NCBI GenBank assembly: GCA_034401795.1
Contig: CM067370.1
Span: forward strand, 66,213,188-66,277,187
Reading direction: 5' to 3'
Origin: Chaetoderma sp. LZ-2023a
Lineage: Eukaryota > Mollusca > Caudofoveata > Chaetodermatida > Chaetodermatidae
DNA length: 64,000 nucleotides
In this document: positions 1,130 through 43,247 of the stretch, in pieces
Layout: each line of letters begins with the position of its first letter
Numbering within the stretch: position 1 is the first letter of the stretch
Made by a program: the position numbers and the translations under genes
Notes under the pieces: generated by a model
The model's database searches: none
Told to the model about the DNA's origin: nothing
The model's input: the letters and a program-made list of their open reading frames with translations, nothing else

Positions 1130-1279
1130 CAGACTTTCTCTGTGAGCTGTTCTTTACAGGACTAGCTCCCGTCACAATTGCTGGATACAAGTCAGCTTTG
1201 GCATCAGTTATCCCTTGTCTAGCCAACAGGGATAGTCCAGAGGTGGCCCAGTTAAACGTGATGTTGAAGGGAATGAGCA
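985..1279 (+). pseudogene. Tyrosine recombinase of DIRS copy A, 5' part
   Basis: N-terminal, DNA-binding part of the recombinase core (AARRRSTFKSYNNKVNRFADW and following). It is read in a frame different from the overlapping RNase H gene. The ORF is cut at 1279/1280 by insertion of copy B; the missing catalytic half is at 8352-9043. The frame runs on a few codons into the copy B terminal repeat and stops at 1333-1335, which is an accidental fusion. Confidence 0.8.
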
Positions 1280-1450
1280 TTCTCCTTCGATCAATACTCA
1301 CCATTCTGTTACTTCTGATATACAGCTGGCCCTGACAGCGGCTCTAGGATTATAGACTTAGAAAGCTTTACCGACTCCTGGGAACCGGGTACCCGGCTCC
1401 CCACTGCCGAGTACCCGTTTACCATAGAGCTCATTCTTGTTTGCATAGCA
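1280..1450 (+). repeat. Left inverted terminal repeat of DIRS copy B
   Basis: Inverted complement of 8158-8310, with only small differences. It includes the palindromic stretch GGGTACCCGGCTCCC and ends near GCATAGCAACAAG. The outermost ~45 bp are also present as their complement in the ICR (8002-8045). It probably carries promoter functions, but no promoter motif was identified with confidence. Confidence 0.88.
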
Positions 1451-1557
1451 ACAAGTGCAATACATGCTTTTCGCATTAAGGATTTTAGTGTTTTTTAAAA
1501 GAATCTAAGTCTTTAATCAGTGATAGTTTGTGTGTTCTGAAAGGATAACTAAGGACT

Positions 1558-1584
1558 ATGGAGAATACCGCCCAAGATAACCAG
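1558..1584 (+). CDS. Predicted first coding exon of the DIRS gag-like gene (copy B)
   Basis: An ATG in good context (A at -3, G at +4) is followed by nine codons ending ...DNQ. The same short peptide is kept in copy C (17671-17697) and copy D (35624-35647), while the reading frame just after it is closed differently in each copy. A GT follows directly (CAG|GTTGTA). A pyrimidine-rich acceptor ends at 2349, and joining the two keeps the frame into a conserved Cys-rich segment that has no ATG of its own. This is a prediction from conservation. The donor is weak (GTCGTA in copy D), so confidence is moderate. Confidence 0.45.
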
Positions 1585-2349
1585 GTTGTATTGTTCTTTA
1601 TATCCATAGTTAAAAGACTTAGGTCTCTAAATTTCGTTGTGTCGCATGTTCCAATTTCTAACCCCATAGAATCTGGGACGTGTGCTAGCAACGATATATG
1701 CCAGATGATCGCCTTCTTTAAACCCCAACAGGCGATCGGCAGATATGAAAATAGGTGTTTGCTACGGTATTTCTAACACGAATATCGGCTGACGTCGTTC
1801 TCCGTAGAATCCGAGCGGGTGACGTCACACCCGGTCGCTCGGATGTTTATGTGAAGAAAAATTTTTTCATTAATCGCGCATCTTGTTCTGGGTGCTGCGT
1901 ACTAAAAATGGTACCGGAAACTTTAGAATGATCAAGTTTACGTGCAATCACGATCGGTTTGCAATGATCGGTGGTTTCAAAATTCTTGAGTAGATGCGTG
2001 GTCTGCGGTTTTACCGTGTGGGACAGCAGTTGTTATACATTTTGTTGTTTTCTTCACATATCGTGCTGCGTTCGTTAGGAGTATAATTTATATTGATTAG
2101 TAAATATACCCTGAATGCTATGCGATATGATTCCTGGAGCCGTTACACATCCTGTAGGATCTATTATGGGTGTGTTGTGCCCGCCGCGTTCTTGTCGTCA
2201 TAATCAATGCGATCGTTGTTGTAACGTGGCGGGGTGGGGTGCGGGAGGTTACGGTTAATTTATGAGTCAAAATATTTGAAAATTAATTGTCTGCCTTCCA
2301 TCCGTGTCTCGTTCCGCTTGTTTATTGTAGGTTTGTGCTTATTTTATAG
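1585..2349 (+). other. Predicted intron in the 5' leader of DIRS copy B
   Basis: 765 bp of non-coding sequence between the predicted donor (CAG|GTTGTA) and a good acceptor, TTTGTGCTTATTTTATAG|G. Copies C (17698-18460) and D (35648-36411) have the equivalent segment with the same ends. It includes a conserved block around the GGCTGACGTCG motif (about 1786-1830). It holds no coding potential shared between copies. If it is not an intron, it is simply a long leader. Confidence 0.4.
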
Positions 2350-4445
2350 GCCAAGCCAGCCCCGCCATCATGTGACGACTGCCATAAGTTTGTCCGTGTA
2401 ATGTTCAAGGACCATGTCTGTTTTAGGTGTGCCCTGTGTAATATAGATCATAGGTGTAATGTTTGTGCAGTGTGGTCCGTCGAAACGATGGTTAAGTTCC
2501 TTGCCCAGAAGGACTTGGCTGGGTCTGACGCGGGGTCAGGCGGTCCGAGAGGAAATCGTGGATCGGCCGGTGGGGGTGCTCCACGTCCCCAGCTGGAGGT
2601 GGCGGAGATGGCACCGCCGGCGTGGTTTGGTCCGGCTATGCAGGGTTTTCTGCATAGCGTTCTGCCCACGCTGGTGTCGTCCCTGCTACCAAAGGTTGGG
2701 GGCAGTTTCTCCCCATGCCTGGTACGGATCCTGTCTTCGGACAGGATTCTGGACTGGTTACCGAGGGGGCCGTCTCGTACGGCCCCCTGGCGGGTCCGTC
2801 TGGCTTCGGCCAGACGGGTTCTGTCTCTCTGCGGCCACCTCCGGGTGGTCCAGTAGCGGTGGCCGGTCCGTCAGGTGTGGGAGCCGTCCGCCAGGACGGC
2901 TCCACGGTTTATTCGTCTAGTGACGGCTCTTCGGAGTCTGAAGACGATGAGGCCGAGGAGGAGAGGTTGCTGCGGCCCGTGAAGCCGCAGGTGGAGAATA
3001 TGGAGGTTGATTCCGTCCTGGACGGAACCGGCCTCCATTTGTCTGGTTTGGCGCAAGCCAGGTCAGCGGCTCCGCCTGCGGCTGAGGCCAATCCGTTACC
3101 GTGCACCGGTTCCGCGCGGCTTGGTTTGTCACCAGCCGTCAGGGGAACCGGTGTGCCGGGCCAGGCGTGGTACTCACCTATCTCGCCTGGTCCGGCAGCC
3201 GGACATGGGGTGCCGTTGGCGCCCGTGGCCGGCTATGGTTCCGCGACGGTTACGGGTCCGTACGGTTTTCCGTGCGGACCTACCCCATGGACCGGAGTGT
3301 TTCATGGGGTGGCGGCGGAACCATGTGGTAGCGGAGTGCCTGGCGTGTCAGCCGTGGCTCCTGGCCGGGAGGCCATGGCTGGCAGACCCGTAAGCATGTC
3401 AACGGGTGACGTGTTTGCGGGGGTATCTTCTTCGGAGTTAGACTGGTCTGATGCTCTGGCGTGGCTAGCCAGAGTTGACCCGTCTGTGGTTTCGGCCACG
3501 GCCGATGAAGATGCGCCCCGTCCGTCGGTTGCGTCGATTAGGACGGGGATTTTGCCCGCGGCCCGGATCCAGTCAGTGGGACTGGATCCAAGGTTCATTG
3601 ATTTGTTGGATGCTATTTATAGCAAACAACTAATGACCAAGGGTCAGCTCCCTGCGGCCTCCAGGGAGGTGGGGGCAAGGTGTCGTATTCCGCGGGGTGA
3701 ATACGACAGGTATGGTGTAGTCCCGTCGGTCACGGAGGATGACCGATGGGTACTGGGCGTCCAAAGTGCCGGTTCGGGTGGTCCCGGTCCGGCACTAGTG
3801 GATAAGGCCCTATGCGATGAGGGTGTGAGGGCAGCCATGAGCGCTGTCAATCACTCCTATCGTCTACTTCAGTCGGTGTGGGCTGAAGCGGGGCCAGGCC
3901 ACCCTGTGCCACCTGTGGCGCTATCGTGCGTTAATGACGGCTTGGTGCTGTCAATGGACGCATTGGCAAGGGTGCAAGCGCGTGTGACGAAGTCCAGGAG
4001 GCAAATGGTCATTGACCATATGCGTCCGGCTACGGCAGTCAAGGAGCGTCTTCTTGGGACGCCCCTGACAGGGCCTAGCATCTTTGGTGGCCAAGCGCGG
4101 GCCATCTTAGAGGACACCGCCAGTATTGCGCAGAATCGGTTAGCGGTAAATCTACAGCTAGAGCTAGTGCGGCAAGCGCACGCACTAGGGGCTGTGGGTA
4201 AGCCGCTAACAGTACAGCCTTCAAAGAAACAGAAAAAGCATAAGGGCAAGGCGAAAGCCAGGCCTATTGCGACGTCTGTTTCGGCTGGGTTTTCGGAGCC
4301 GCCGCCGGCGAAGAAACCCAGGAAGGCTGTAGAGGCGCCTACCCTCCCCAATGTTGCTCCGGACCGCCCTAGAGGTGGTAAGGGCAAGGGGAAGGGTAAG
4401 GGTAAGGCCTCAAAGGGCGGACAGAAGGGGCCGAAGCGTACCTGA
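2350..4445 (+). pseudogene. DIRS gag-like ORF1, copy B (one frameshift)
   Basis: The putative nucleocapsid/structural gene of the element. It opens with a Cys/His-rich segment (CDDCHK...CFRCALC...CNVC) that could bind zinc. A Pro/Gly/Val-rich middle follows, then a helical conserved region (about 3570-4200), and finally a very basic Gly-Lys repeat tail ending at the TGA at 4443-4445, which probably binds RNA. The N-terminal part runs in one frame to about 2856. The remainder is in the next frame from 2715. Comparison with copy D (GTTGTTGGGCAG against GTTGGGGGCAG) places a 1-nt loss near 2695. ORF1 of DIRS elements has no enzymatic domain, so function is inferred from position and the basic tail. 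Confidence 0.65.
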
Positions 4446-4561
4446 GGGTACGCAAGCTCCCTTCATATCCGCCTGGACCGCACCTGTGCGACAGGAACAG
4501 CGGTGCCAGTTATACCCGTCGTGCCTAGAACGAAATGGTTCTCACTCTCTCTCGTTAAGAA

Positions 4562-4573
4562 AGGGGGGGGGGG
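4562..4573 (+). repeat. Poly(G) tract between ORF1 and RT/RNase H
   Basis: An uninterrupted run of 11 G follows GTTAAGAAA, just after the gag-like stop and about 45 bp before the ORF2 start codon. The same site has 7 G in copy C (about 22218-22224) and 14 G in copy D (about 38666-38679). Length changes here alter the relative frame of sequences upstream of ORF2. Confidence 0.8.
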
Positions 4574-4615
4574 CGGACTGCGAGCCGGACAACCCCGTTA
4601 GACGTCGAGGCGTCT

Positions 4616-6661
4616 ATGGTGGGTGGAAGGCTCATGCGTTTCGTCGAGGCTTGGCGAGGTGTGACGTCAGACAGTCTGGTCCTGGGATGGTTATCCCAGG
4701 GTTACATGCCGGAGTGGTGGGACTTTCCGCCACAAAATCTGTCTTTGGCACCAGTCTGGACACCCGTACCAAGGGAGCCAGACAAGTTAGAAGCCGTTCA
4801 AAAGGAAGTGTCGGGTTTGCTTCTGAAGGGAGCAATAAAACCAGCAAACCGGAACACTCCAGGCTTCTATTCAAACATGTTCCTTGTCCCCAAGAGCACG
4901 GGGGGATGGAGACCCATACTCAATCTCAGGCCATTAAATTGGTTTATCCATACGCCTCGGTTCCAGATGGAAACACCGAGGTCGGTAATGGCGGGATTGA
5001 GGAAAGGAATGTGGTGTGTATCGATCGATCTGAAAGATGCATATTTCCACATTCCGATCAATCGGAGTTGGCACAGGTTTCTGAGATTTGCGTTTCAGAA
5101 TCAAGTATGGGAGTTTACAGTTCTCCCGTTTGGCCTGTCGACAGCTCCGAGGGTTTTCACAAGAGTGGTCCTTGCGGTGACAGCGTTTCTCAGAAAAGAG
5201 AACGTGGCGCTACACACCTACATAGACGACTGGCTGCTCAAGGCAGACTCGGCAGCCAGGTTGAACGTGGATACTGCTCTGACTCTGAAGTTACTTTCAG
5301 ATCTAGGCTGGTTAGTCAACGAGGAGAAATCCGAGTTGACACCCACTCAACATTTCGTTTATTTGGGGATGCGATTCGACCTCGAGGAGGGCAGGGTTTA
5401 CCCGTCAGAGCCCAGAGTGGTGTCTCTGTTAGCCATCCTCGGGAGTTTTCGAGTGGGAAACCACATTCAGGCGAGGCGGTTCCTTCAGATGCTGGGCATG
5501 ATGGTCTCCATGGAGCAGGTTATCCCGTACGCTGCTCTAATGCGAAGACCTATCCAGTTGTATCTGATGTCTCTGTGGAAACAGAGAACAGAACCCCTGT
5601 CAAAACTGGTGCCAGTTTTGGAGCCGATAATATCGCATCTTCTATGGTGGAAACAGCGTCAGAATCTCCTAATAGGGGTTTCGCTGCACCTACCCCACCC
5701 CCAGCTGTCCGTTTACACGGATGCATCGCTGGAAGGGTGGGGTGCCTGCCTGGGAGAACACCAGGTCTCGGGCACATGGACTCTCCCGGAGAGTCAGCTG
5801 CATATCAATCTGTTGGAAATGATGGCAGTGGAACTGGCGTTGGAAGAATTCCTTCCGATGATCAGGGGCAAGGTGATATTGATACGGTCGGACAATTCGA
5901 CAGTAGTATCATATATAAATCGCCAAGGAGGGACCAGGTCGCCCACCCTGTGCATCAGGGTGTGGCACTTGATTCAATGGTGCAGGAATTACTCGGTTGT
6001 TTTGAAAGCAGCTCATATTCCTGGCCGATTGAACATTCTGGCGGATGCTTTGTCTCGCAGACAGAGAATCCTGCCAACAGAATGGTCCCTCAACCCTCCA
6101 GTTCTACGACGGATCTTCGAGCATTGGGGCAAACCCAACGTGGACTTGTTCGCCACAAAGGAAAATGCTCAAATCATGACATATGTCTCGCCGATTCCAG
6201 ATCCAAATGCCGTCGATACAGACGCTCTGGCGATAAGCTGGAGAGGGATGCACGCTTACGCGTATCCACCCACCATTCTTCTACCGAAGGTATTGGTGAA
6301 GGTCAGGGAGGAACCGTGTCTGGTCCTGCTAATAGCGCCGTATTGGCCGAGCAGGGCGTGGTTCACGGATCTTCTAGATCTGCTGGTGGAAAATCCTGTG
6401 CAGTTGCCCGAGATTCCGAACATAATCTCCCAGGCCAAGGGACGCTTCCTACACGAGCGTCCCGAAATGTTCAAATTGACTGCGTGGATGTTGTCAAACA
6501 ACGTTCCACGTCGGAAGGCTTTTCTCGACAGGCTGCTGATTTCATCGCGGCTGCGAGAAGGAGGTCAACCTTCAAGTCATATAACAACAAGGTTAACAGA
6601 TTTGCAGACTGGTGTGAAGAAAAGGGTATTGATACCTTTCAATCCACTATTCAGCAAATAG
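4616..6661 (+). CDS. DIRS ORF2: reverse transcriptase / RNase H
   Basis: 681-residue open frame. It copies element RNA into DNA and removes the RNA strand. The RT domain (about residues 85-290) shows LKDAYFHIPI near residue 139, LPFGLSTAPRVFTR near 168 and the catalytic YIDDW near 202. RNase H (about 362-480) shows YTDAS near 366, the INLLEMMAVELAL block, RSDNS near 423 and HIPGRLNILADALSR near 465. The following VDLFATKEN...DALAISW region is conserved in DIRS elements; whether it is the methyltransferase-like domain reported for this group I could not decide. The start ATG is kept in copy C and is ATA in copy D. The last ~680 nt overlap the recombinase frame. No inactivating change was seen. 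Confidence 0.92.
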   Translation: MVGGRLMRFVEAWRGVTSDSLVLGWLSQGYMPEWWDFPPQNLSLAPVWTPVPREPDKLEAVQKEVSGLLLKGAIKPANRNTPGFYSNMFLVPKSTGGWRPILNLRPLNWFIHTPRFQMETPRSVMAGLRKGMWCVSIDLKDAYFHIPINRSWHRFLRFAFQNQVWEFTVLPFGLSTAPRVFTRVVLAVTAFLRKENVALHTYIDDWLLKADSAARLNVDTALTLKLLSDLGWLVNEEKSELTPTQHFVYLGMRFDLEEGRVYPSEPRVVSLLAILGSFRVGNHIQARRFLQMLGMMVSMEQVIPYAALMRRPIQLYLMSLWKQRTEPLSKLVPVLEPIISHLLWWKQRQNLLIGVSLHLPHPQLSVYTDASLEGWGACLGEHQVSGTWTLPESQLHINLLEMMAVELALEEFLPMIRGKVILIRSDNSTVVSYINRQGGTRSPTLCIRVWHLIQWCRNYSVVLKAAHIPGRLNILADALSRRQRILPTEWSLNPPVLRRIFEHWGKPNVDLFATKENAQIMTYVSPIPDPNAVDTDALAISWRGMHAYAYPPTILLPKVLVKVREEPCLVLLIAPYWPSRAWFTDLLDLLVENPVQLPEIPNIISQAKGRFLHERPEMFKLTAWMLSNNVPRRKAFLDRLLISSRLREGGQPSSHITTRLTDLQTGVKKRVLIPFNPLFSK

Positions 6662-7503
6662 CAGACTTTCTCTGTGAGCTGTTCTTTACAGGACTAGCTC
6701 CCGTCACAATTGCTGGATACAAGTCAGCTTTGGCATCAGTTATCCCTTGTCTAGCCAACAGGGATAGTCCAGAGGTGGCCCAGTTAAACGTGATGTTGAA
6801 GGGAATGAGCAATCTCCGACCGAGACAACCGGTAGTCATTCCAGCCTGGAGTCTATCTTTAGTGCTTAATGTACTGGCCAAGCACCCATTCGAACCGTTG
6901 CGTTCGGCTAGTCTAAAGCATTTGACTCTAAAGGCGGTTTTTCTATTGGCAGCTTCCTCAGCTAGAAGGCGCAGTGAGATCCATGCGCTTTCGGCAGAGA
7001 GGAACCGATTTATTGTTTCTGGAGAAGGTCTGCGTCTTCTGCCAAGAGCAGAATTTATGTCAAAGAACCAATCTTTGAGATATCCCGGCAAACCGATCAT
7101 TATACCGAAGTTAACCAGGTTTGATCGTGATGCCAGTGTCTGGTGCCCGGTCCGTGCTTTGACTAAGTACAAGAAACGGACTGACTCGTTACGGTCGAAC
7201 GATAGACATCTGTGGATCTGCCATAAAAAGCCTTATGGCGCCGCATCCATGGATACTATCTCTCGTTGGGTGGTCGAATGCATTCAGACTACTCATGAGA
7301 TGGCGACTGGGCACCAGGTGCAGGGCGTAAGGGCACACGATGTTAGAGGAATAGCCGCCTCGACCGCCCTTTACAATGGTGTTCCGTTAGAGGACATCAT
7401 GGCCGTTGCACAATGGCACTGTGAGTCCTCATTTACGGATTACTATATGAGGGATGTGTCAGACTCAGCCAATCCACTCGCTTTAGCTGTTTTGAAACGA
7501 TAG
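5977..7503 (+). CDS. DIRS ORF3: tyrosine recombinase
   Basis: It integrates the circular DNA form of the element. The conserved core begins near 6511 (ARRRSTFKSYNNKVNRF). Catalytic features follow in order: the first Arg in SARRRSEIHALS (about 6958-6990), HDVRG giving the H-x-x-R box (about 7339-7353), and QWHCESSFTDYYM (7411-7449) carrying the last His/Trp and the nucleophilic Tyr, one of the two at 7441-7446. The start is uncertain: this frame is open without a stop from 4351, through the whole RT/RNase H gene. I chose the Met at 5977 by analogy with copy D, where the open frame starts at the equivalent place. The N-terminal overlap residues are low-complexity and may not be protein. Confidence 0.85.
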   Translation: MVQELLGCFESSSYSWPIEHSGGCFVSQTENPANRMVPQPSSSTTDLRALGQTQRGLVRHKGKCSNHDICLADSRSKCRRYRRSGDKLERDARLRVSTHHSSTEGIGEGQGGTVSGPANSAVLAEQGVVHGSSRSAGGKSCAVARDSEHNLPGQGTLPTRASRNVQIDCVDVVKQRSTSEGFSRQAADFIAAARRRSTFKSYNNKVNRFADWCEEKGIDTFQSTIQQIADFLCELFFTGLAPVTIAGYKSALASVIPCLANRDSPEVAQLNVMLKGMSNLRPRQPVVIPAWSLSLVLNVLAKHPFEPLRSASLKHLTLKAVFLLAASSARRRSEIHALSAERNRFIVSGEGLRLLPRAEFMSKNQSLRYPGKPIIIPKLTRFDRDASVWCPVRALTKYKKRTDSLRSNDRHLWICHKKPYGAASMDTISRWVVECIQTTHEMATGHQVQGVRAHDVRGIAASTALYNGVPLEDIMAVAQWHCESSFTDYYMRDVSDSANPLALAVLKR

Positions 7504-8001
7504 TTAGTGACCACACTGCTTTTCCCCTTTTTTCACTTTGGTAAGAAAAGAACCTAAAGCAGGCATGGTCAAGCGAGAGGATGTCAACCAGATTGTGTCA
7601 CTGATGGCCGAACCGGTGTATGGTTGTAGGCGGTACGTCTGAAGTCCTGTTATCATAAGGTAATTCAACAAGTGAGAGTTTTTTGTATTATGTATATGTA
7701 TCATGTTCATTCATCTTATATATTCATGCTCATTCCCAGGCTAATACAAACGATATGCAGGGAGTAGTTAACCCTCTTGGCATATTGGTGTTTCAGGCGA
7801 GATACATGTTCGTTAGTTCTCTCCCTTTTCTTAGGAGGAAAAAGGGGGGGGGGCTGTGACGCGAATGTGATTCGGTTCCGTGAACTTGACGGTCCTTTTA
7901 GGTCTCCGTTAGTCAAGTTTGAAGTCTAAAATCTTTCTCCAAGGGGCAAAATTAGCATGTATGGCTTGCCCCTTCCCACCAGGTTACTGATCAAATCTGC
8001 T
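7504..8001 (+). other. 3' non-coding region of DIRS copy B with G-tract hairpin
   Basis: Non-coding, conserved in copies A (9044-9542), C (22912-23402) and D (41578-42081). It contains CTCCCTTTTC, a TTAGGAG loop, then GAAAAAGGG leading into a 10-G run (about 7822-7853), which can fold as a stem-loop. The G run is 12 long in copy A and interrupted in C and D. No other motif was recognised. Confidence 0.6.
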
Positions 8002-8105
8002 GTATATCAGAAGTAACAGAATGGTGAGTATTGATCGAAGGAGAATGCAGGAAATGTCAATTTCCCTTTCTCCGAGATCTAACAATACTCACCATTCTGT
8101 TACGG
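8002..8105 (+). repeat. Internal complementary region (ICR) of DIRS copy B
   Basis: The first ~44 bp are the reverse complement of the left terminus (1280-1323). The next ~58 bp are the reverse complement of the right terminus (about 8294-8351). They meet at GGAGAA|TGCAGG, the complement of the two ends joined head to tail. In the DIRS1 replication model this segment templates completion of the termini and formation of the circular intermediate. Confidence 0.92.
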
Positions 8106-8157
8106 ACCCAGCCTCCCAGCCCCACGGAGGCAAGCCATAGTTTTCTCTTGTTTGGTG

Positions 8158-8351
8158 GCTATGCAAACAATATGAGCTCTATGGTAAACGGGTACTCGGC
8201 AGTGGGGAGCCGGGTACCCGGTTCCCAGGAGTCGGTAAAGCTTTCTAAGTCTATAATCCTAGAGCCGCTGTCAGGGCCAGCTGTATATCAGAAGTAACAG
8301 AATGGTGAGTATTGTTAGATCTCGGAGAAAGGGAAATTGACATTTCCTGCA
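8158..8351 (+). repeat. Right inverted terminal repeat of DIRS copy B
   Basis: Inverted relative to 1280-1450, with a terminal extension (TTAGATCTCGGAGAAAGGG and on to CCTGCA) that is not in the left repeat but is mirrored in the ICR. Copy A resumes immediately at 8352. Confidence 0.88.
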
Positions 8352-9043
8352 ATCTCCGCCCGAGACAACCGGTAGTCATTCCAGCCTGGAGTCTATCTTT
8401 AGTGCTTAATGTACTGGCCAAGCACCCATTCGAACCGTTGCGTTCGGCTAGTCTAAAGCATTTGACTCTAAAGGCGGTCTTTCTATTGGCAGCTTCCTCA
8501 GCTAGAAGGCGCAGTGAGATCCATGCGCTTTCGGCAGAGAGGAACCGATTTATTGTTTCTGGAGAAGGTCTGCGTCTTCTGCCAAGAGCAGAATTTTTGT
8601 CAAAGAACCAATCTTTGAGATATCCCGGCAAACCGATCATTATACCGAAGTTAACCAGGTTTGATCGTGATGCCAGTATCTGGTGCCCGGTCCGTGCTTT
8701 GACTAAGTACAAGAAACGGACTGACTCGTTACGGTCGAACGATAGACATCTGTGGATCTGCCATAAAAAGCCTTATGGCGCCGCATCCATGGATACTATC
8801 TCTCGTTGGGTGGTCGAATGCATTCAGACTACTCATGAGATGGCGACTGGGCACCAGGTGCAGGGCGTAAGGGCACACGATGTTAGAGGAATAGCCGCCT
8901 CGACCGCCCTTTACAATGGTGTTCCGTTAGAGGACATCATGGCCGTTGCACAATGACACTGTGAGTCCTCATTTACGGATTACTATATGAGGGATGTGTC
9001 AGACTCAGCCAATCCACTCGCTTTAGCTGTTTTGAAACGATAG
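8352..9043 (+). pseudogene. Tyrosine recombinase of DIRS copy A, 3' part
   Basis: Catalytic half of the recombinase, with the RRRSEI and HDVRG boxes present. The conserved QWHCES box is broken: TGG has become TGA at 8954-8956, so the nucleophilic Tyr region is behind a stop. Together with the split at 1279/8352 the gene is doubly inactive. The upstream ORF start at 8312 lies in the terminal repeat of copy B and is accidental. Confidence 0.85.
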
Positions 9044-9542
9044 TTAGTGACCACACTGCTTTTCCCCTTTTTTCACTTTGGTAAGAAAAGAACCTAAAGC
9101 AGGCATGGTCAAGCGAGAGGATGTCAACCAGATTGTGTCACTGATGGCCGAACCGGTGAATGGTTGTAGGCGGTACGTCTGAAGTCCTATTATCATAAGG
9201 TAATTCAACAAGTGAGAGTTTTTTGTATTATGTATATGTATCATGTTCATTCATCTTATATATTCATGCTCATTCCCAGGCTAATACAAGCGATATGCAG
9301 GGAGTAGTTAACCCTCTTGGCATATTGGTGTTTCAGGCGAGATACATGTTCGTTAGTTCTCTCCCTTTTCTTAGGAGGAAAAAGGGGGGGGGGGGCTGTG
9401 ACGCGAATGTGATTCGGTTCCGTGAACTTGACGGTCCTTTTAGGTCTCCGTTAGTCAAGTTTGAAGTCTAAAATCTTTCTCCAAGGGGCAAAATTAGCAT
9501 GTATGGCTTGCCCCTTCCCACCAGGTTACTGATCAAATCTGG

Positions 9543-9646
9543 TGTATATCAGAAGTAACAGAATGGTGAGTATTGATCGAAGGAGAATGCAGGAAATGTC
9601 AATTTCCCTTTCTCCGAGATCTAACAATACTCACCATTCTGTTACG
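9543..9646 (+). repeat. ICR of DIRS copy A
   Basis: Same arrangement as 8002-8105: complement of the family left end, then complement of the right end (9836-9893), meeting at GGAGAATGCAGG. Confidence 0.88.
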
Positions 9647-9699
9647 GACCCAGCCTCCCAGCCCCACGGAGGCAAGCCATAGTTTTCTCTTGTTTGGTG

Positions 9700-9893
9700 G
9701 CTATGCAAACAATATGAGCTCTATGGTAAACGGGTACTCGGCAGTTGGGAGCCGAGTACCCGGTTCCCAGGAGTCGGTAAAGCTTTCTAAGTCTATAATC
9801 CTAGAGCCGCTGTCAAGGCCATCTGTATATCAGAAGTAACAGAATGGTGAGTATTGTTAGATCTCGGAGAAAGGGAAATTGACATTTCCTGCA
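9700..9893 (+). repeat. Right inverted terminal repeat of DIRS copy A
   Basis: Nearly identical to 8158-8351 and ends CATTTCCTGCA. The corresponding left repeat of copy A must lie upstream of the window. Confidence 0.85.
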
Positions 9894-17380: not shown

Positions 17381-17560
17381 TTCTCCTTCGATCAATACTC
17401 GCCATTCTGTTACTTTCTGATACACAGCTGGCCCTGACAGCTGGCTCTAGGACTATAGACTTAGAAAGCTTTACCGACTCCTTGGAACTGGGTACTCGGC
17501 TCCCAACTGCCGAGTACCCGTCTACCATAGAGCTCATTCTTGTCTGCATAGCAACAAGAG
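17381..17560 (+). repeat. Left inverted terminal repeat of DIRS copy C
   Basis: Matches 1280-1450 and is the inverted complement of 23563-23756. Confidence 0.85.
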
Positions 17561-17670
17561 CTGTCCACGCTTTTTTCAGGGAGAGATTTAAAGTGTTTTG
17601 AAAAGAAATCTAAGTCTTTTATCTGTGATTTGATAGTTTGTGCGTTCTTGAAAGGATATAACTGGATAAA

Positions 17671-17697
17671 ATGGAGAATACCGCCGATGATAACCAG
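17671..17697 (+). CDS. Predicted first gag exon, DIRS copy C
   Basis: ATG plus eight codons (MENTADDNQ), followed by GTTGTA. Two codons further in the same frame is a TAA, so the peptide could continue only by splicing, predicted to the acceptor at 18459-18460. The evidence is the same three-copy conservation described for 1558-1584. Confidence 0.4.
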
Positions 17698-19975: not shown

Positions 19976-19983
19976 CTGTCAAC
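19976..19983 (+). repeat. 8-bp target-site duplication, left copy
   Basis: CTGTCAAC, repeated exactly at 21500-21507 on the other side of the hAT insertion. Confidence 0.92.
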
Positions 19984-21499: not shown

Positions 21500-21507
21500 C
21501 TGTCAAC
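21500..21507 (+). repeat. 8-bp target-site duplication, right copy
   Basis: CTGTCAAC; identical to 19976-19983. Confidence 0.92.
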
Positions 21508-22914: not shown

Positions 22915-23402
22915 TATGACCGCACTGCTCTTCTTCCTTCTTTGGCATTTGTAAGAGAGAATTTAGAAGCAGGCTTGGTCAAGCGAGAGGATATCAACCA
23001 GTTGTGTTACTGAAGGCCGGACAAGTGAATGGTTGGAGTCTCCAGGTCTGAATTCCAAATATCATGAGGTAATTCACGATTGAGAGTGTTTTGTATTATG
23101 TCTATATATCATGATCATTCATCTTATATATTCATGCTCATTCCCAGGCTAATATATGCAAAGAGCAGTTAACCCTCTTGGCATTTTTGTGTTTCAGGCG
23201 AGATACTTGTTCGTGAGTTCTCTCCCTTTTCTTAGGAGAAAAAGGGGGGCGGGGCCAGTGATGCGAATGTGATTCGGTTCCGATAACGTGACGGCCCTTT
23301 TAGGTCTCTGTTAGTCAAGTTGTTACGTCTAAATCTTTCTCCAAGGGGCAAAAGTAACATTTATGGCTTGCCCCTTCCCACCAGGTTACTGAACAAATCT
23401 GG
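22915..23402 (+). other. 3' non-coding region of DIRS copy C
   Basis: Homologous to 7504-8001, including the CTCCCTTTTCTTAGGAGAAAAAGG hairpin region at about 23221-23250 with a shorter, interrupted G run. Confidence 0.6.
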
Positions 23403-23507
23403 TGTATATCAGAAAGTAACAGAATGGTGAGTATTGATCGAAAGAGAATGCAGGAAATTTCAATTTCCCTTTCTCCGAGATCTAACAATACTCACCATTC
23501 TGTTATG
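23403..23507 (+). repeat. ICR of DIRS copy C
   Basis: Complement of the left end, including the extra base in AGAAAGTAAC that matches GTTACTTTCT at the left end. It is followed by the complement of the right end, including the variant GGAAATTTCAATT matching AATTGAAATTTCC at 23740-23752. Confidence 0.9.
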
Positions 23508-23562
23508 GACCCAGCCTCCCAGCCCCACGGAGGCAAGCCATGGATTTCTCTTGTTTGGTGGC

Positions 23563-23756
23563 TATGCAAACAATATGAGCTCTATGGTAGACGGGTACTC
23601 GGCAGTTGGGAGCCAAGTACCCGGTTCCAAGGAGTCGGTAAAGCTTTCTACGTCTATAGTCCTAGAGCCAGCTGTCAGGGCCAGCTGTGTATCAGAAAGT
23701 AACAGAATGGTGAGTATTGTTAGATCTCGGAGAAAGGGAAATTGAAATTTCCTGCA
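23563..23756 (+). repeat. Right inverted terminal repeat of DIRS copy C
   Basis: Matches 8158-8351 and ends CCTGCA; the flank TTCTAAAAGATTG follows. Confidence 0.86.
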
Positions 23757-30170: not shown

Positions 30171-30391
30171 AAATAATAATAGCTAAATATAGTACATCAT
30201 GGACAGTACATTTGTACATTTTAAATCAATAGTCCCCATATACTGACTTTATCAAGGCTAATGAAATCTCTCAACCTGGGTTTGACCATGATCTTCTAGC
30301 AATATTCCTTTGATGGTTTTCTTGTAAAATTTAACTTTTATGTTGATGTACATGTATGATTATATACTGTTATTTGTGTATGTTAATACAG

Positions 30392-35340: not shown

Positions 35341-35520
35341 TTCTCCTTCGGTCAATACTCACCATTCTGTTACTTCTGATATACAGCTGGCCTTGACAGC
35401 TGGCTCTAGGACTATTGACTTAGAAAGCTTTACCGACTCCTTGGAACCGGGTACTCGGCTCCCAACTGCCGAGTACCCATCTACCATAGAGCTCATTCTT
35501 GTTTGCATAGCAACAAGAGC
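35341..35520 (+). repeat. Left inverted terminal repeat of DIRS copy D
   Basis: Matches 1280-1450 and pairs with 42240-42435. Confidence 0.85.
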
Positions 35521-35623
35521 TATACATGCTTTTTGCAGTGGAAATATTGAGAGATAAAAATCTAAGTCTGTGTAACTGTGATTGTGATAGCTAGTGACTC
35601 TCTTGCAAGGATAATTGGATAAT

Positions 35624-35647
35624 ATGGATACTGCCGATGATAACCAG
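35624..35647 (+). CDS. Predicted first gag exon, DIRS copy D
   Basis: ATG plus seven codons (MDTADDNQ), then GTCGTA; the frame closes soon after. It joins in phase to the acceptor TTATTTATAG at 36410-36411. Part of the three-copy pattern described for 1558-1584; the donor is the weakest of the three. Confidence 0.38.
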
Positions 35648-36411
35648 GTCGTATATTTCCTTATTATTCCATAGTTAAAAGACTTAGGTCTCTAAATTTT
35701 GTTGTGTCGCATGTTCCAATTTCTGACCCCAAAGAATCTGGGACGTGTGTTAACAACGAGATATGCCGGATGATCACCTTCTTTAACCCCAACAGGCGAT
35801 CGGCAGATATGAAAATAGGTGTTTGCTACGGTATTTGTAACACGAATATCGGCTGACGTCGTTCTCCGTAAGATCTGAGTGGGTGACGTCACACCCGTGG
35901 TGCTCGGATGTTTAGAACATTTTTTCATTAATTCGTGCATCTTGTTCTGGGTGCTGCGTACTAAAAATGGTACTAGAAAACTTTGGAATGGTCAAGTTTT
36001 GCGTGTTATCACGATCTGTTTGCAATGATCGGTGGTTTCAAAATTCTTGATTAAGATGTGTGGTCTGCGGTTTTACCGTGTGCTACAGCAGTTTGTTTAC
36101 ATTTTGCTGTTTCTTCACGTATCGTTTTGGCTTTCGTTAGGAGTATAATTTATATTGATGGTAAATATACCCCGAATGCTATGCGATATGATTCCTGGTT
36201 CCGTTATACATCCTGGAGGATCAATTATGGGTGTATTTAATGCCCGCTTCGTTCTTGTCGTTATAGTCAATGCGATCTTTGTTGTAGCGTTGCGGGGTGG
36301 GGTGCGGGAGGGTTACAGTTAATTTATGGTCAAATTATTTGAGAATTAATTGTCTGCCTTCCATCCGTGTCTCGTTCCGCTTGCTTATTGTAGGTTTGTG
36401 CTTATTTATAG

Positions 36412-38550
36412 GCCAAGCCAGCCCGGCCATCATGTGACGAGTGCCACAAGTTCGTACGGGTCCTATTTAAGGACCATGTCTGCTTTAGATGTACTGCATG
36501 TAACCTTGATAGTAGGTGTAATGTGTGTGCAGTGTGGTCCGCAGATATGATGTTGAAGTTCCTTGCCCAGAAGGATTTGGCTGGGTCTGACGTGGGGTCA
36601 GGCGGTCCGAGGTTAAATCATGGAGCGTCCGGTACGGCCGGTGGGGGCGCTCCACGTCCTCAGCTGGAGGTGGCGGAGATGGCACCGCCGGCGTGGTTTG
36701 GTCCGGCTATGCAGGGCTTTCTGCATAGCGTTCTGCCCACGCTGGTGTCGTCCCTGCTGCCGAAGGTTGTTGGGCAGTCTCTCCCCATGCTTGGTACGGA
36801 CCCTGTCCTTGGACAGGGTTCTGGACTGGTTACCGAGGGAGCCATCTCGTACGGCCCCCTGGCAGTCCCGTCGGGCTCCGGCCTGACGGGTTCTGTCTCT
36901 CTGCGGCCACCTTCAGGTGGGAGCCCGACGGGTTCTGTCTCTCTGCGGCCACCTTCGGGTGGTCCAGTAGCGGTGGCCGGTCCGTCAGGCATGGGAGCCG
37001 TCCCCGGTTTCTTCGTCTAGTGACGACTCTTCGGGGTCTGAAGACGAGGAGGCCGAGGTGGAGAGGTTGCTGCGGCCTGTGATGCCACGGGTGGAGAAGA
37101 TGGAGGTCGATTACATCCTGGACGGAACCGTCCTCCATCTGTCTGGCTTGGCGCAAGCCAGGGCAGCGGCTCCACCCGTGGTTGAGGCCAATCTGGTACT
37201 GGGCACCGGTCCCGTGATGGTTGGTGTGATGCCAGCCGACACGGTGACGGGTGTGCTGGGCCAGGCGTGGTACTCACCTATCTTGCCTGGTCCGGCGGGC
37301 AGACGTGGGGTGCCGTTGGCGTCCGTGTCTGGCCACGGTTCCGCGTCTGCTATGGGTCCGCACTGTTTTCCATGCGGGCCTACTCCATGGACTGGTGTGT
37401 TCCATGGGGTGGCGGCGGAACCGTATAGTACCAGAGTTCCTGGCGTGTCAGCCGCAGCTCCTAGCCGGGAGGCCGTGGCTGGTAGGTCCGTGAACGCGTC
37501 AACAGGTGACGTGTTCACGGGTGTGTCCTCGGAAGTAGACTGGTCGGAGGCTCTGGCTTGGCTAGCCATGGTTGACCCGTCTGTGGTTTCGGCCACGGCC
37601 GAGGAGGATGCGCCCCGTCCGTCGGTTGCATCGATTAGGACGGGGATCTTGCCCGTAGCCGGCATCCAGTCCGTTGGACTGGATCCACGGTTTATCGAGT
37701 TGCTAGAGGCTATTTTTAGCAAGCAGCTCATGACCAAGGGCCAGCTCCCTGCGGCCTCCAGGGAGGTGCGGGCAAGGTGTCATATTCCACGGGGGGAATA
37801 CGACAGGTATGGTGTGGTACCATCGGTTACGGAGGATGACCGATGGGTTCTGGGTGTCCAGAGTGCTGGAGCGGGTTGCCCCGGTCCGGCACTGGTGGAC
37901 AAGTCCCAGGCACACCATGAGGAAGTCCTGTCCCTATGTGATGAGGGTGTGAGGGCAGCTATGAGTGCTGTCAACCACTCTTATCGGTGTGGGCTGAAGC
38001 GGGGGCAGGCCACCCTGTGCCACCTGTGGCGCTTTCGTGCGTAAATGACGGCCTGGTGCTGTCTATGGACACGCTGGCAAGGGTGCAGGCGCGTGTTACA
38101 AAGTCCAGGAGGCAAATGGTTCTTGACCATATGCGTCCGGCTACGGCCATCAGGGAGCGTCTCCTTGGGACGCCCCTGACAGGTCCTAGCATCTTCGGTG
38201 GCCAGGCGCGGGCCATCCTAGAGGACACTGCTAGCATTGCGCAGAATCGGTTGGCGGTAAACTTACAGCTGGAGCTAGTGCGGCAAGCGCACGCACTATG
38301 GGCTGTAGGGAAGCCGTTGACTGTTCAACCTTCCAAGAAACAGAAGAAGCATAAAGGCAAGGTGAAAGCTAAGCCTAGTGCGGCTTCTGCTTCGTCTGGA
38401 TTTTCTCAGCCGCCGCCGGCAAAGAAAGCCAGGAAGGTTGTGGAGGCCCCTACCCTCCCCAATGTTGCGCCGGATCGCCCTAGAGGCGGGAAGGGCAAGG
38501 GGAAGGGTAAGTCCTCAAAGGGCGGAAAGAAGGGAGCGGATCGTACCTGA
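36412..38550 (+). pseudogene. gag-like ORF1 of DIRS copy D (two frameshifts)
   Basis: Begins after the predicted acceptor with an intact Cys-rich segment (CDECHK...CFRCTACN...CNVC). It runs open to a frame break near 36995-37020 (loss relative to copy B in the PxxFSS region). There is a second break at about 37985, where 11 nt of CTACTTCAGTC-type sequence is missing. The first frame also has a tandem duplication of TGTCTCTCTGCGGCCACCTT (about 36893-36960). The C-terminal part ends in a shorter basic Lys/Gly tail at the stop at 38548-38550. Confidence 0.75.
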
Positions 38551-38743
38551 GGATACGAGAGCTCCCTTCGTATCCGCCTGGACCGCACCTGTGCGACAGG
38601 AACAGCGGTGCCAGTTAGACCTGCCGAGCCAAGACCAAAATGGTTCTCTCTCTCTCGTTAAGAAAGGGGGGGGGGGGGGAGAGCGGACCGCGAGCCGGAC
38701 AACCCCGTTAGGCGTCGAGGCGTCTATAGTGGGTGGAAGGCTC

Positions 38744-40732
38744 ATGCGTTTCGTCGAGGCTTGGCGAGGGGTGACGTCAGACAGTCTGGTCCTGGGATGG
38801 TTATCCCAGGGATACATGCCGGAGTGGTGGGACTTTTCGCCACAGAATCTGTCTTTGGCACCTGTCTGGACACCCGTACCAAGGGAGCCAGACAAGTTAG
38901 AAGCCGTTCAAAAGGAAGTGTCGGGTTTGCTTCTGAAGGGAGCAATAAAACCAGCAAACCAGAACACTTCAGGCTTCTATTCAAATATGTTCCTTGTCCC
39001 CAAGAGCACAGGGGGATGGAGACCCGTACTCAATCTGAGGCCATTAAATTGGTTTATCCATACGCCTCGGTTCCAGATGGAAACGCCGAGGTCGGTAATG
39101 GCAGGGTTGAGGAAGGGAATGTGGTGTGTATCGATCGATCTGAAAGATGCATATTTCCACATTCCAATGAACAGGAGTTGTCACAGGTTTCTGAGATTTG
39201 CGTTTCAGAATCAAGTATGGGAGTTTATTGTTCTCCCGTTTGGCCTGTCGACAGCTCCAAGGGTTTTCACAAGAGTGGTCCTTGCGGTGACAGCGTTTCT
39301 CAGAAAAGAGAACGTGGCGCTACACACCTACATAGATGACTGGCTGATCAAAGCAGACTCGGCAGCCAGGTTGGACGTGGATACTGCTCTGACTCTGAAG
39401 TTACTTTCAGATCTAGGCTGGATAGTCAACAAGGAGAAATCCGAGTTGACACCCACTCAACATTTCGTTTATTTGGGGATGCGATTCGATCTCGAGGAGG
39501 GCAGGGTTTATGCATCAAAGCCCAGAGTGGTGTCTCTGTTAGCCATCCTCAAGAGTTTTCGAGTGGGAAACCACATTCAGGCGAGGCGGTTTCTTCAGAT
39601 GCTGGGCATGATGGTCTCCATGGAGCAGGTGATCCCGTACGCTGCTCTAATGCGAAGACCTATCCAGTTGTATCTGATGTATCTGTGGAAACAGAGAACA
39701 GAACCCCTGTCAAAACTGGTGCCAGTTTTGGAGCCAATAATGTCGCATCTTGTATGGTGGAAAGAGCATCAGAATCTCCTAGTAGGGGTTTCGCTGCACC
39801 TACCCCACCCCCAGCTATCCGTGTACACGGATGCATCGCTGGAGGGGTGGGGGCCGAGAGCACCAGGTCTCGGGCACATGGACTCTCCAGGAGAGTCAGC
39901 TGCATATCAATCTGTTGGAAATGATGGCAGTGGAACGGGCGTTGGAAGAGTTTCTTCCGATGATCAGGGGCAAGGTGATATTGATACGGTCGGACAATTC
40001 GACGGTAGTATCATACATAAATCGCCAACGCTGTGTATCAAAGTGTGGCACTTGATTCAATGGTGCAGGAATTACTCGGTTGTTTTGAAAGCAGCTCACA
40101 TTCCTGGGCGATTGAACATTCTGGCGGATGCTTTGTCTCGCAGACAGAGAATTCTGCCAACAGAATGGTCCCTCAACCCTCCAGTTCTACGAAGGATCTT
40201 CGAGCATTGGGGCAAACCCAACGTGGACTTGTTCGCCACAAGGGAAAATGCTCAAATCATGACTTATGTCTCGCTGATTCCAGATCCAAATGCCGTCGAT
40301 ACAGACGCTCTGGCGATAAGCTGGAGAGGGATGCACACTTACGCGTACCCACCCACCATTCTTCTGCCGAAGGTATTGGTGAAGATCAGGGAGGAACCGT
40401 GTCTGGTCCGGCTAATAGCGCCATATTGGCCCAGCGGGGCGTGGTTCACGTATCTGCTGGTGGAAAACCCGGTGCAGTTGCCCGAGATTCCGAACATAAT
40501 CTCCCAGACCAAGGGACGCTTCCTACACGAGCGTCCCGAAATGTTCAAATTGACTGCGTGGATGTTATCAAACAACGTTCCACGTCGGAAGGTTTTTCTC
40601 GACAAGCTGCTGATTTCATTGCGGCTGCGAGAAGGAGGTCAACCTTCAAGTCATATAACAACAAGGTTAACAGATTTGCAGACTTGTGTGAAGAAAAGGG
40701 TATTGATACCTTTCAATCCACTATTCAGCTAA
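38744..40732 (+). pseudogene. RT/RNase H of DIRS copy D, RNase H scrambled by paired deletions
   Basis: The RT domain is intact (LKDAYFHIPM, LPFGLSTAPRVFTR, YIDDW at about 39329). At ~39855 an 8-nt deletion shifts the frame and at ~40028 a 19-nt deletion restores it. About 58 residues, including the RSDNS catalytic aspartate block, are therefore read in the wrong frame. The total loss is 27 nt, so the ORF stays open to 40732. The ATG used in copy B is ATA here (38726); the next in-frame Met (38744) is given as the start, and the frame is open back to 38378. RT may work; RNase H should not. Confidence 0.85.
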
Positions 40733-41577
40733 TAGCAGACTTTCTATGTGAGCTGTTCTTCTCAGGACTAGCTCCCGTCACAATTGCTGGATACAAGTCA
40801 GCTTTGGCATCAGTTATCCCTTGTCTAGCCAACAGGGATAGTCCAGAGGTGGCCCAGTTAAATGTGATGGTGAAGGGAATGAGCAATCTCCGACCGAGAC
40901 AACCGGTAGTCATTCCAGCCTGGAGTCTATCTTTAGTGCTTAATGTACTGGCCAAGCACCCTTTCGAACCATTGCGTTCGGCTAGTCTAAAGCATTTGAC
41001 TCTAAGGGGGGTCTTTCTATTGGCAGCTTCCTCAGCTAGAAGGCGCAGTGAGATCCTTGCGCTTTCGGCAGAGAGGGACCGATTTATTGTCTCCGGAGAG
41101 GGTCTGCGTCTTCTGCCAAGAGCAGAGTTTATGTCAAAGAATCAATCTTTGAGATATCCCGTCAAACCGATCATAATACCGAAGTTAACAAGGTTTGATC
41201 GTGATGCCAGTGTCTGGTGCCCGGTCCGTGCTTTGACTAAGTACAGGAAACGGACTGACTCGTTACGGTCGAACGATAGACATCTGTGGATCTGCCATAA
41301 GAAGCCTTATGGCGCCGCATCCATGGATACTATCTCTTGTTGGGTAGTCGAATGCATTCAGACTACTCATGAGATGGTGACTGGGCACCAGGTGCAAGAC
41401 GCAAGGGCACACGATGTTAGAGGAATAGCCGCCTCGACCACCCTTTACAGTGGTGTTCCGTTAGAGGACATCATGGCCGTTGCACAGTGGCACTGTGAGT
41501 CCTCATTCATGGATTACTATATGTGGGATGTGTCAGACTCAGCCAATCCACTCGCTTTAGCTGTTTTGAAACGATAG
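40033..41577 (+). CDS. DIRS ORF3: tyrosine recombinase, copy D
   Basis: 514-codon open frame overlapping the end of the RT/RNase H gene. The core has ARRRSTFKSYNNKVNRF, ARRRSEILALS, RAHDVRGIA and QWHCESSFMDYYMW, so all expected catalytic residues (R, H-x-x-R, H/W, Y) are present. The first ~190 codons overlap RNase H and are probably not part of the folded recombinase. Compared with copy B there are scattered substitutions only. Potentially active. Confidence 0.85.
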   Translation: MYQSVALDSMVQELLGCFESSSHSWAIEHSGGCFVSQTENSANRMVPQPSSSTKDLRALGQTQRGLVRHKGKCSNHDLCLADSRSKCRRYRRSGDKLERDAHLRVPTHHSSAEGIGEDQGGTVSGPANSAILAQRGVVHVSAGGKPGAVARDSEHNLPDQGTLPTRASRNVQIDCVDVIKQRSTSEGFSRQAADFIAAARRRSTFKSYNNKVNRFADLCEEKGIDTFQSTIQLIADFLCELFFSGLAPVTIAGYKSALASVIPCLANRDSPEVAQLNVMVKGMSNLRPRQPVVIPAWSLSLVLNVLAKHPFEPLRSASLKHLTLRGVFLLAASSARRRSEILALSAERDRFIVSGEGLRLLPRAEFMSKNQSLRYPVKPIIIPKLTRFDRDASVWCPVRALTKYRKRTDSLRSNDRHLWICHKKPYGAASMDTISCWVVECIQTTHEMVTGHQVQDARAHDVRGIAASTTLYSGVPLEDIMAVAQWHCESSFMDYYMWDVSDSANPLALAVLKR

Positions 41578-42081
41578 TTAAGTGACCACACTGCTCTTCT
41601 CCCTTTTTTCACTTTGGTAAGAAAAGAATTTAAAGCAGACATGGTCGAGCGAGAGGTTGTCAACCAGATTGTGTCACTGATGGCCGGACCAGTGAATGGT
41701 TGGAGGCGGTACGTCTGGAGTCCATTTATCATGAGCTAATTCAAGATTGAGAGTTTTTTGTATTATGTCTATATATCATGTTCATTCATCTTATATATTC
41801 ATGCTCATTCCCAGGCTAATACATGTGTATATGCAAAGAGCAGTTAACCCTCTTGGCATATTTGTGTTTTCAGGCGAGATGCATGTTCGTGAGTTCTCTC
41901 CCTTTTCTTAGTAGAAAAAGGGGGTGGGGGGGGGGGCAGTGATGCGAATGTGATTCGGTTCCGTTAACTTGACGGTCCTTTTTAGGTGTCCATTAGTGAA
42001 GTTTTAAGTCTAACTCTTTCTCCAAGGGGCAAAAGTAGCATTTATGGCTTGCCCCTTCCCACCAGCTCACTGACCCAATCT
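41578..42081 (+). other. 3' non-coding region of DIRS copy D
   Basis: Homologous to 7504-8001, including the CTCCCTTTTC...GAAAAAGGGGG hairpin with a G-rich run interrupted by one T (about 41897-41936). Confidence 0.6.
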
Positions 42082-42186
42082 GGTGTATATCAGAAGTAAC
42101 AGAATGGTGAGTATGGATCGAAGGAGAATGAAGGAAATGTAAATTTCCCTTTCTCCGAGATCTAACAATACTCACCATTCTGTTAC
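42082..42186 (+). repeat. ICR of DIRS copy D
   Basis: Complement of left and right ends. The right-end half reads GAAGGAAATGTAAATTTCCC, the exact complement of this copy's own variant terminus (GGGAAATTTACATTTCCTTC), not of the family-typical one. Confidence 0.9.
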
Positions 42187-42239
42187 GGACCCAGCCTCCC
42201 AGCCCCACGGAGGCAAGCCATGGATTTCTCTTGTTTGGT

Positions 42240-42435
42240 GGCTATGCAAACAATATGAGCTCTATGGTAGACGGGAACTCGGCAGTTGGGAGCCGAGTAC
42301 CCGGTTCCAAGGAGTCGGTAAAGCTTTCTAAGTCTATAGTCCTAGAGCCAGCTGTCAAGGCCAGCTGTATATCAGAAGTAACAGAATGGTGAGTATTTTT
42401 AGATCTCGGAGAAAGGGAAATTTACATTTCCTTCA
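42240..42435 (+). repeat. Right inverted terminal repeat of DIRS copy D
   Basis: Matches 8158-8351 but ends ACATTTCCTTCA in place of ACATTTCCTGCA. The flanking repeat resumes with TTCTATGCTGG. Confidence 0.86.
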
Positions 42436-43247
42436 TTCTATGCTGGTACCCTCTAGAGGTTTGTTCAAAATTTTGATTGGTAAATTTTTTGAGATGAAAA
42501 TCTTAGTTTTTATGAAAAATTTACCCTAAAGTGTCAAAGCGCTGCTCCTCCTTAGCTAGTTGACATATTTCAACAAAATTTGGCTAGACTGATTCTATGG
42601 TGGTAGGTTCTACAACTGCTATTCAGAATTTAGATTGATCAATTTTTGGGGGTGAAAATCTTAGATTTTTGTGAAAAATTTACTGGAAAGAGTCAAAATG
42701 ATACTCCTTGGCTACTTTACATATTTTAACCAAATTTGGCTAGACTGATTCAATGCTCGTAGGTTCTAGAACTTCTATTCAGAATTTTGATTGATCAATT
42801 CTTTTGGTGAAAATCTTAGATTTTATGAAACATTTACCGGAAATAGTCAAAATGCTACTGCTCCATAGCTGCTTCACATATTTGAACCAAATTTGGCTAG
42901 AAGGCTTCTATGGTGATACACTCTAGAACCTCTGTTCAGAATTTTAATTGTTAAATTTTGTGGGCGAAAGCCTTAGATTTTGTTAAGAATCTACCAGAAA
43001 TGGTCAAAATGGTACTCCTCCTTAACTGCTTAACATATTTCAATCAAATTTGACTAGATGGATTCTATGATGGTGGTAGGCTATAGAACTTCTATTCAAA
43101 ATTTTGGTTGCCCGATTTGTTTGCCATTCATTTCTTTGGTGGCGATCTTGGATTTTTTCGAAAATTATCCATCAAGTCTATTTAAATACAAATGGTTCAA
43201 ATGCTAATGGTCCAGGTGAGCATCACAGGCCCTTGGGCCTCTTGTTT
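42436..43247 (+). repeat. AGCTCACC-end repeat, right part (~155-bp core)
   Basis: About five units carrying AACCAAATTTGGCTAGA, TTCTATGGTGGTAGG, TTCAGAATTTTGATT and GAAAATCTTAGATTTT. It ends CCAGGTGAGCATCACAGG and GGGCCTCTTGTTT at about 43247. Confidence 0.82.

Follow-up and report, generated by a model that had tools for sequence, protein, structure and literature searches.

How does a retrotransposon that carries a tyrosine recombinase (YR) select its target, and at which step are element and target joined? This question is raised by a 64,000-nucleotide stretch of the Chaetoderma sp. LZ-2023a genome (G000:C12:66213188-66277187 of the 2.44 Gb genome G000; hereafter the window), in which several copies of one DIRS1-like retrotransposon, named Z, A (in two pieces), B, C and D, are found. 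The family is young and high-copy. In 2018 the insertion mechanisms of DIRS1 elements were called proposed and not experimentally demonstrated (PMC5941688). The insertion word of the present family is shown to be D-T-(C)-(T), with D rarely being C, and it is joined at one fixed step. We regard this insertion rule, comprising the word, the step and the lack of a target-site duplication, as nearly certain.

The target begins with NTCT at all five right junctions of the window (Table 1), as an earlier note on this DNA had reported; the junctions are real and were confirmed from the sequence. TCT occurs at 1.85% of positions in the non-DIRS DNA of the window, and the chance of meeting it at five of five junctions is about 8e-6, even allowing five registers per junction. 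In the whole genome, patterns with up to two mismatches found 6,205 right and 6,672 left termini, which are not copy numbers since composites of the element carry extra termini; reversed control patterns gave zero matches. The sample of insertions was taken from 100 listed right and 100 listed left places, the first on contig C1, all of them exact matches. Left and right termini on the same strand and 4.8-7.2 kb apart were paired by eye, which gave 49 pairs, of which 48 were fetched. Their flanks were foreign on both sides in 38 cases, element sequence on both sides in six and on one side in four. Four repeats of already counted sites (one duplicated flank and three at one site in the element's own reverse transcriptase (RT) frame) were dropped, leaving 44 distinct sites. 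Exact patterns select young copies whose ends are intact, so that truncated insertions would escape the sample. The selection fixes bases +2 to +8 of the left end; left +1, right -1 and all flanks are free.

With the cut placed between -1 and +1, the logo of the 44 sites has A in 22, T in 19, G in three and C in none at target position +1 (0.44 bit), T in 43 and A in one at +2 (1.47 bit), C in 34, T in seven, A in two and G in one at +3 (1.25 bit), and T in 36, C in six and A in two at +4 (0.91 bit). The remaining positions from -6 to -1 and from +5 to +10 hold at most 0.29 bit each. TCT stands at +2 to +4 in 29/44 sites, to be compared with the background given above. It thus survives as a preference and fails as a strict rule, only the T at +2 being near-invariant. 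The A that the earlier note placed before the cut had to be abandoned, as target -1 is A in only 19 of the sites (T in 14, G in six, C in five). Genome-wide, the 3,385 exact right termini ending in CTGCA are followed by TTCT in 849 cases, ATCT in 659, GTCT in 417 and CTCT in 37, so that NTCT follows 1,962 of them (58%); own-element joints that spread within composites raise the ATCT and GTCT counts. A C at +1 is uncommon but does occur. Annotators gain from this word a rule for locating the ends of the element.

The step of the exchange can be read from the bases at which target and circle junction, CTGCA^TTCTCC (^ marks the cut), differ. The left end has T at +1 in 44/44 sites, and the target has another base in 25 of them; the right end has A at -1 in 44/44, and the target again has another base in 25. 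For two of the +1 mismatches (L105/106 and L147/148) one flank is element sequence, and these two are possibly not true pairs. When the mismatch is at -1, the target base stays on the left and the circle's A is on the right; when it is at +1, the circle's T stays on the left and the target base is on the right. The exchange therefore lies between -1 and +1, and the single crossover step before N that had been proposed is pinned by these mismatches. Table 3 of PMC3266345 gives the start, end and circle junction of 28 elements. Two of these, having 2-nt junctions, were set aside; among the other 26, eight have a differing terminus. In seven it is the end that departs from the junction, at base 2 in six elements and at base 3 in one, and in the eighth it is the start, at base 1; 8/8 fit a crossover between bases 1 and 2. 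In these published elements base 1 of the start is nearly always that of the junction, unlike the free -1 observed here, which may reflect the choice of reference sequences or a real difference between families.

Target-site duplications were not detected: over lengths of 1 to 6 bases, the last bases of the left flank matched the first bases of the right flank no more often in the 38 unique pairs than in shuffled pairs. Locus L017, which has GTC on both sides, was rejected as a duplication, shared triplets occurring in 0/38 of the pair sample. The joined flanks of copy B align with two intact stretches of the element, 6662-6961 and 40736-41035, over 300/300 positions and with no gap. Six sampled sites are likewise ungapped at the cut when compared with intact copies in the window or with repeat relatives (Table 1), which makes seven empty sites with B; at one of them, L091/92, one of four relatives has a 1-base indel adjoining the cut. 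Apart from the near-identical own-element cases, such a relative is distinct from the ancestral site. The statement that no base was duplicated or lost at B, C and D therefore stands for B and falls for D, where about 8 bp are missing; for C no empty site was found within the window. Conservative joining without target-site duplication is supported by the pairs, and the preference for T-C-T at +2 to +4 is supported by the logo of the 44 sites and by the whole-genome counts.

Tyrosine recombinases cut the two strands some bases apart, and after replication about half of the insertions are expected with the other cut, an expectation that we extend to the DIRS case. A staggered two-strand exchange would accordingly place target bases at about half of the left ends. 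This was not seen. The inner left terminus, chosen without selection on +1 to +9, occurs 4,721 times as an exact match in the genome, and exact TTCTCCTTC precedes it in 4,415 cases (93.5%). Among 100 listed inner left termini, 96 have exact TTCTCCTTC and the other four carry single changes (TTCTCCATC twice, TTCCCCTTC and TTCTCCGTC); T is at +1 in 99 of 100 listed left ends. Right flanks beginning with TTCTCC make up 1/44. Of the two junction classes that a staggered recombinase should produce, essentially only one is present, with one possible exception in 100. This pattern points to a one-strand exchange, and we consider it fairly probable, from the junctions as they read, that the exchange is normally confined to the strand on which both termini lie.

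We propose that the YR of the element would cut one strand of the junction, CTGCA^TTCTCC, and one of the target, in each case just 5′ of the shared word, and would swap these two strands, the target being accepted through its bases +2 to +4. The second, staggered exchange would be absent or without product, and replication or repair would finish the insertion. The joined product would consist of the target up to -1, the element TTCTCC...CTGCA and the target from +1 on. Single-stranded or nicked cDNA, its junction made double-stranded by the internal complementary region (ICR) or by folded inverted repeats, would explain the pattern. A scheme in which the cDNA is single-stranded, has its junction held by the ICR or by the folded repeats with their stem, internal loops and a tip hairpin in the right extension, is joined by one strand and is completed by the host is offered tentatively, as a possibility that falls a little short of probable. 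If it is true, the ICR and the right extension take part in forming the recombination site and do more than close the circle. The mechanism is now directly testable, as to which strand is cut and whether a single-stranded junction suffices.

In the predicted fold of the junction strand, the inverted terminal repeats form a long stem, accompanied by short stems and by a tip hairpin, GGAAAT-TGAC-ATTTCC, in the right extension, and the cut TGCA^TTCTCC sits where the next stem starts. The z of this fold is -9.4 and is owed largely to the inverted terminal repeats; the end with the tip hairpin, folded alone, has a z of -0.6 to -0.8, which is not significant. Tip hairpins of about 7-8 bp between the stems of the repeats were obtained for L001, L002 and L003. 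For L004 no ICR was seen and no tip hairpin was obtained. Variation of the tip hairpin inside one family says little. With its stem and tip hairpin, the predicted fold resembles an integron attC site, at which recombination proceeds without a second strand exchange and replication resolves the product (PMC2727003). In the reading proposed here the likeness would extend to the exchange of one strand, the missing second exchange and the resolution by replication. The DIRS element differs in being a eukaryotic retrotransposon with another recombinase, and the single-strandedness of its junction is only proposed.

Several observations weigh against the rule and the one-strand exchange, to which the published model and biased repair, discussed below, have to be added. 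Of the 306 left ends (6.5% of 4,721) without exact TTCTCCTTC, the letters were read for four only. One listed left end, at C1:54180208 (L153), reads TCA^ATCTCC and is either a point mutation or a rare example of the other junction class. Positions +6 (0.28 bit; C or T in 35/44) and +9 (0.29 bit) slightly exceed 0.22 bit, the 99% level for random sequence (n = 38), and a far-side target preference there is possible. All evidence on the mechanism comes from young copies in fixed insertions, most of them on a single contig. At copy D, whose flanks lie in a dispersed repeat, 15 of the 17 window relatives that align across the site hold 7-8 bp without counterpart in D; the other two, at 58056 and 47709, align with gaps of 0 and 3. 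The genome search gave 1,535 candidates, 40 of which were scored; 38 of these matches span 4-10 bases more than D's joined flanks, and the other two are D's own flanks. The stretch missing at D (35340/42436) is bounded by GG on both sides, so that an older slip in the target is indistinguishable from a loss at insertion.

Four other explanations were weighed. It is somewhat unlikely that the protein recognises N-T-C-T as a target motif, in which case likeness to the circle would not be needed for pairing. One family with one circle word cannot separate such a motif from homology, and TCT as circle homology and TCT as a word read by protein are not separated by these data. The preferred word is, however, the circle's own +2 to +4, and in Table 3 of PMC3266345 other junction words go with corresponding end words, though most have T at base 3.

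Less likely still is that a double-stranded circle undergoes a two-strand exchange and that the same strand is then always favoured, through biased mismatch repair or a persistent nick. Biased repair could mimic single-class junctions, and the bacterial SE elements give strand-biased products although their intermediates are judged to be nicked double-stranded circles (PMC10214605). As here, the circle spacer of SE elements is preferentially at one end and the target spacer at the other, with one product class; apart from their intermediates, SE elements differ in being DNA elements of bacteria, in having a 6-bp spacer and in using three integrases. Such an explanation needs a near-complete bias, and strong base preference is confined to one side of the cut. 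Tolerance of mismatched crossover regions by a tyrosine recombinase, with a base at the ligation site that matters, is also known from the Tn916/Tn1549 family (PMC5871717). There, as seen for Tn1549, the circle carries a 5-7 nt heteroduplex derived from the flanks, whereas the DIRS circle junction is constant and mirrored in the ICR.

The published model, in which a double-stranded circle recombines with an identical 3-bp genomic word in an ordinary two-strand reaction, appears improbable for this family. It is stated in PMC3266345 and PMC5941688, circular forms are reported for DIRS-1 (PMC5633606), and the conservative junctions in this genome agree with it. Our rule is in outline the 3-bp NTT model of PMC3266345, which proposes recombination with an identical 3-bp sequence and no target-site duplication. 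The three bases are not identical here, as circle and target differ at -1 in 25/44 sites and at +1 in 25/44, and the two staggered exchanges predict target bases at about half of the left ends, where 4,415/4,721 show the circle sequence. The identical word belongs to the model and not to the anatomy that defines a DIRS1-like family. The joining of linear cDNA by microhomology end-joining, which would fit the short shared words and the 8 bp or so missing at D, is scarcely credible, since both ends are exact in the sampled sites, there is no target-site duplication, seven empty sites have nothing missing, and the shared word is kept on both sides as in a reciprocal exchange. The one-strand exchange remains our preferred reading. 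In this large collection of natural insertions the crossover step is pinned down and the target bases that count are apparent, and the collection speaks against a simple two-strand exchange at three identical bases.

The assignment of the family as DIRS1-like is based on its domains and termini. The RT and RNase H of copy B match PF00078 (E 4.8e-22) and PF17917 (E 2.3e-5), and the RT has 2,084 relatives at E <= 0.001 among 7,988 scored. The YR matches PF02899 with an E of 7.1e-5, just above the cut-off of that family, and contains HxxR and Y-like motifs, whose roles in the enzyme we presume. A comparison of the YR sequence with the PDB gave no sequence match, and no Pfam match at E <= 0.001 to a methyltransferase-like domain after RNase H was found in the RT/RNase H open reading frame (ORF) of B. 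The element has inverted terminal repeats with a right extension, lacks a target-site duplication, and has an ICR that is complementary to both ends, these overlapping at the circle junction. On the opposite strand the ICR reads ..TTTCCTGCATTCTCCTTCG.., which is the right and left ends joined, and the circle junction is preserved as a reverse complement in the ICRs of A, B, C and D. Private bases are common to the right terminus and its own ICR in C (TTGAAATTTCC) and in D (TTTACATTTCCTTCA), which fits ends and ICR templating each other. RT/RNase H, tyrosine recombinase, inverted termini, an ICR spanning the circle junction, NTT-like ends and the lack of a target-site duplication are shared with published DIRS1-like elements (PMC3266345; DIRS-1 of Dictyostelium, PMC5633606), and insertion into own copies is reported as well (PMC5941688). 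Unlike in these, the preference here reaches to about +4, -1 is free, the crossover has a fixed place between -1 and +1, and a single junction class is seen. In the available excerpts of the searched literature, which include PMC3266345, PMC2685390, PMC9210276, PMC5633606, PMC6681497 and PMC5941688, no report of a single junction class or of a measured DIRS target logo was found; this negative is weak, as subscription papers lie mostly outside that literature. Scans of viral contigs gave no relatives, and a scan of further genome contigs gave four DIRS pieces in contigs of metagenome-assembled genomes, none readable across a junction.

Table 1. Features of the window, its junctions, and sampled loci cited in the text (^, cut)
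Feature	Position	Strand	Remarks
Copy Z, right end	1..232	+	ends ..TTTCCTGCA; left end upstream of the window at G000:C12:66206426, locus L033
Middle piece of host copy A, spanning RNase H to YR and lying between Z and B	233..1279	+	begins GTCTCGGGC, finishes GAGCA
Full copy B	1280..8351	+	TTCTCC...CTGCA; joined flanks align ungapped to intact copies
Long ORF ahead of pol in B, stop to stop	2658..4445	+	gag position; putative function, from position
RT/RNase H ORF of B	4559..6661	+	PF00078, PF17917; YIDDWL 5219-5236, TDAS 5717
Tyrosine recombinase part of B ORF 4333-7503	6481..7503	+	PF02899; ARRRSE 6961, HDVRG 7336, QWHCE 7411, DYYMRD 7438
ICR of B	8003..8110	-	reverse complement of joined right and left ends, ..TTTCCTGCA^TTCTCCTTCG..
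Tail of host copy A, from the 3′ part of YR up to the right end; on the target side of B	8352..9893	+	right end joins ATCTCCCTAAATAAAAG
Copy C	17381..23756	+	internal deletion and foreign insertion at 19984-21499
Copy D	35341..42435	+	target without about 8 bp relative to repeat relatives
Right junction Z	232/233		CTGCA^GTCT
Right junction B	8351/8352		CTGCA^ATCT
Right junction A	9893/9894		CTGCA^ATCT
Right junction C	23756/23757		CTGCA^TTCT
Right junction D	42435/42436		CTTCA^TTCT
Left junction B	1279/1280		GAGCA^TTCTCC
Left junction C	17380/17381		GTAA^TTCTCC
Left junction D	35340/35341		TTTGGA^TTCTCC
Ungapped empty sites	L063/64, L073/74, L079/80 (with L121/122, L131/132), L085/86, L091/92, L127/128
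RT-site loci	L079/80, L121/122, L131/132, L151/152, L041

Z, A and B do not appear to be three separate insertions at the window locus; their joints appear to lie inside one composite. The left terminus at L033 is 6.99 kb upstream of Z's right end, where the left end of Z is expected, and it has an ordinary flank (AAAATGATA^TTCT) and not the head of A. This implies that Z, the middle of A, B and the tail of A moved as one unit, and they probably travelled together into the target AATGATA^ATCTCCC. Three independent nested insertions at the window locus were considered and are argued against by L033. At L034, the place guessed for A's left end, no left terminus was found in 601 bp. Such composites could arise by read-through that starts at the left end of an inserted copy and runs on to the host copy's right end. 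The middle piece of A is 99.05% identical to copy B at 5765-6817 of the window.

The joint of B's end with the tail was matched over the whole query at 40/40 scored places, out of 654 candidates and with the window included. At some of these places the joints stand in tandem about 1.54 kb apart, and most of the loci read have other left flanks. The joint is followed by GCCC in 19/20 loci read, where the intact YR has GACC; as the query itself has GCCC, this shows the spread of one version of the joint and not the number of hits on the YR site. Element-plus-tail composites can move as units. Self-inserted copies in general appear to move as composites of a full element and a host tail whose outer flanks differ (L013-L032, L041), and tandem tails about 1.54 kb apart occur, for example four on C17 near 59.58 Mb.

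A site in the element's own RT ORF, CCAG^GTCTCGGG (window 5764/5765 and 232/233), is struck in several copies with differing flanks (Table 1). Compared with B, four sampled pairs differ at 0, 5, 9 and, with an indel, 37 of 136 positions, which suggests that this site was hit repeatedly and is a self-insertion hot spot. At L107/L108 and L133 on C1, head-to-tail copies are joined at the right end of another copy (CTGCA^TTCTCC), as if the end junction itself had served as target. Regular arrays of termini, with left termini every 2,993 bp and right termini every 3,745 bp or so, are located at G000:C1:51362017-51377032 and C4:62345386-62360431.

The foreign insertion in copy C has inverted ends TAGGGTTGGGCGAT and is bordered by 8-bp direct repeats CTGTCAAC at 19976-19983 and 21500-21507; judged from its sequence, it looks hAT-like. 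A sixth, degraded DIRS element of a different family lies on the minus strand at 27848-30225, with fragments of RT and YR in broken frames; no inverted termini were recognised in it. The region 10150-11575 contains a frame that, judged by eye only, is like the reverse transcriptase of a non-LTR (long terminal repeat) retrotransposon. Comparison of the window with itself revealed tandem repeat arrays at 53430-54215 and 63461-63771.

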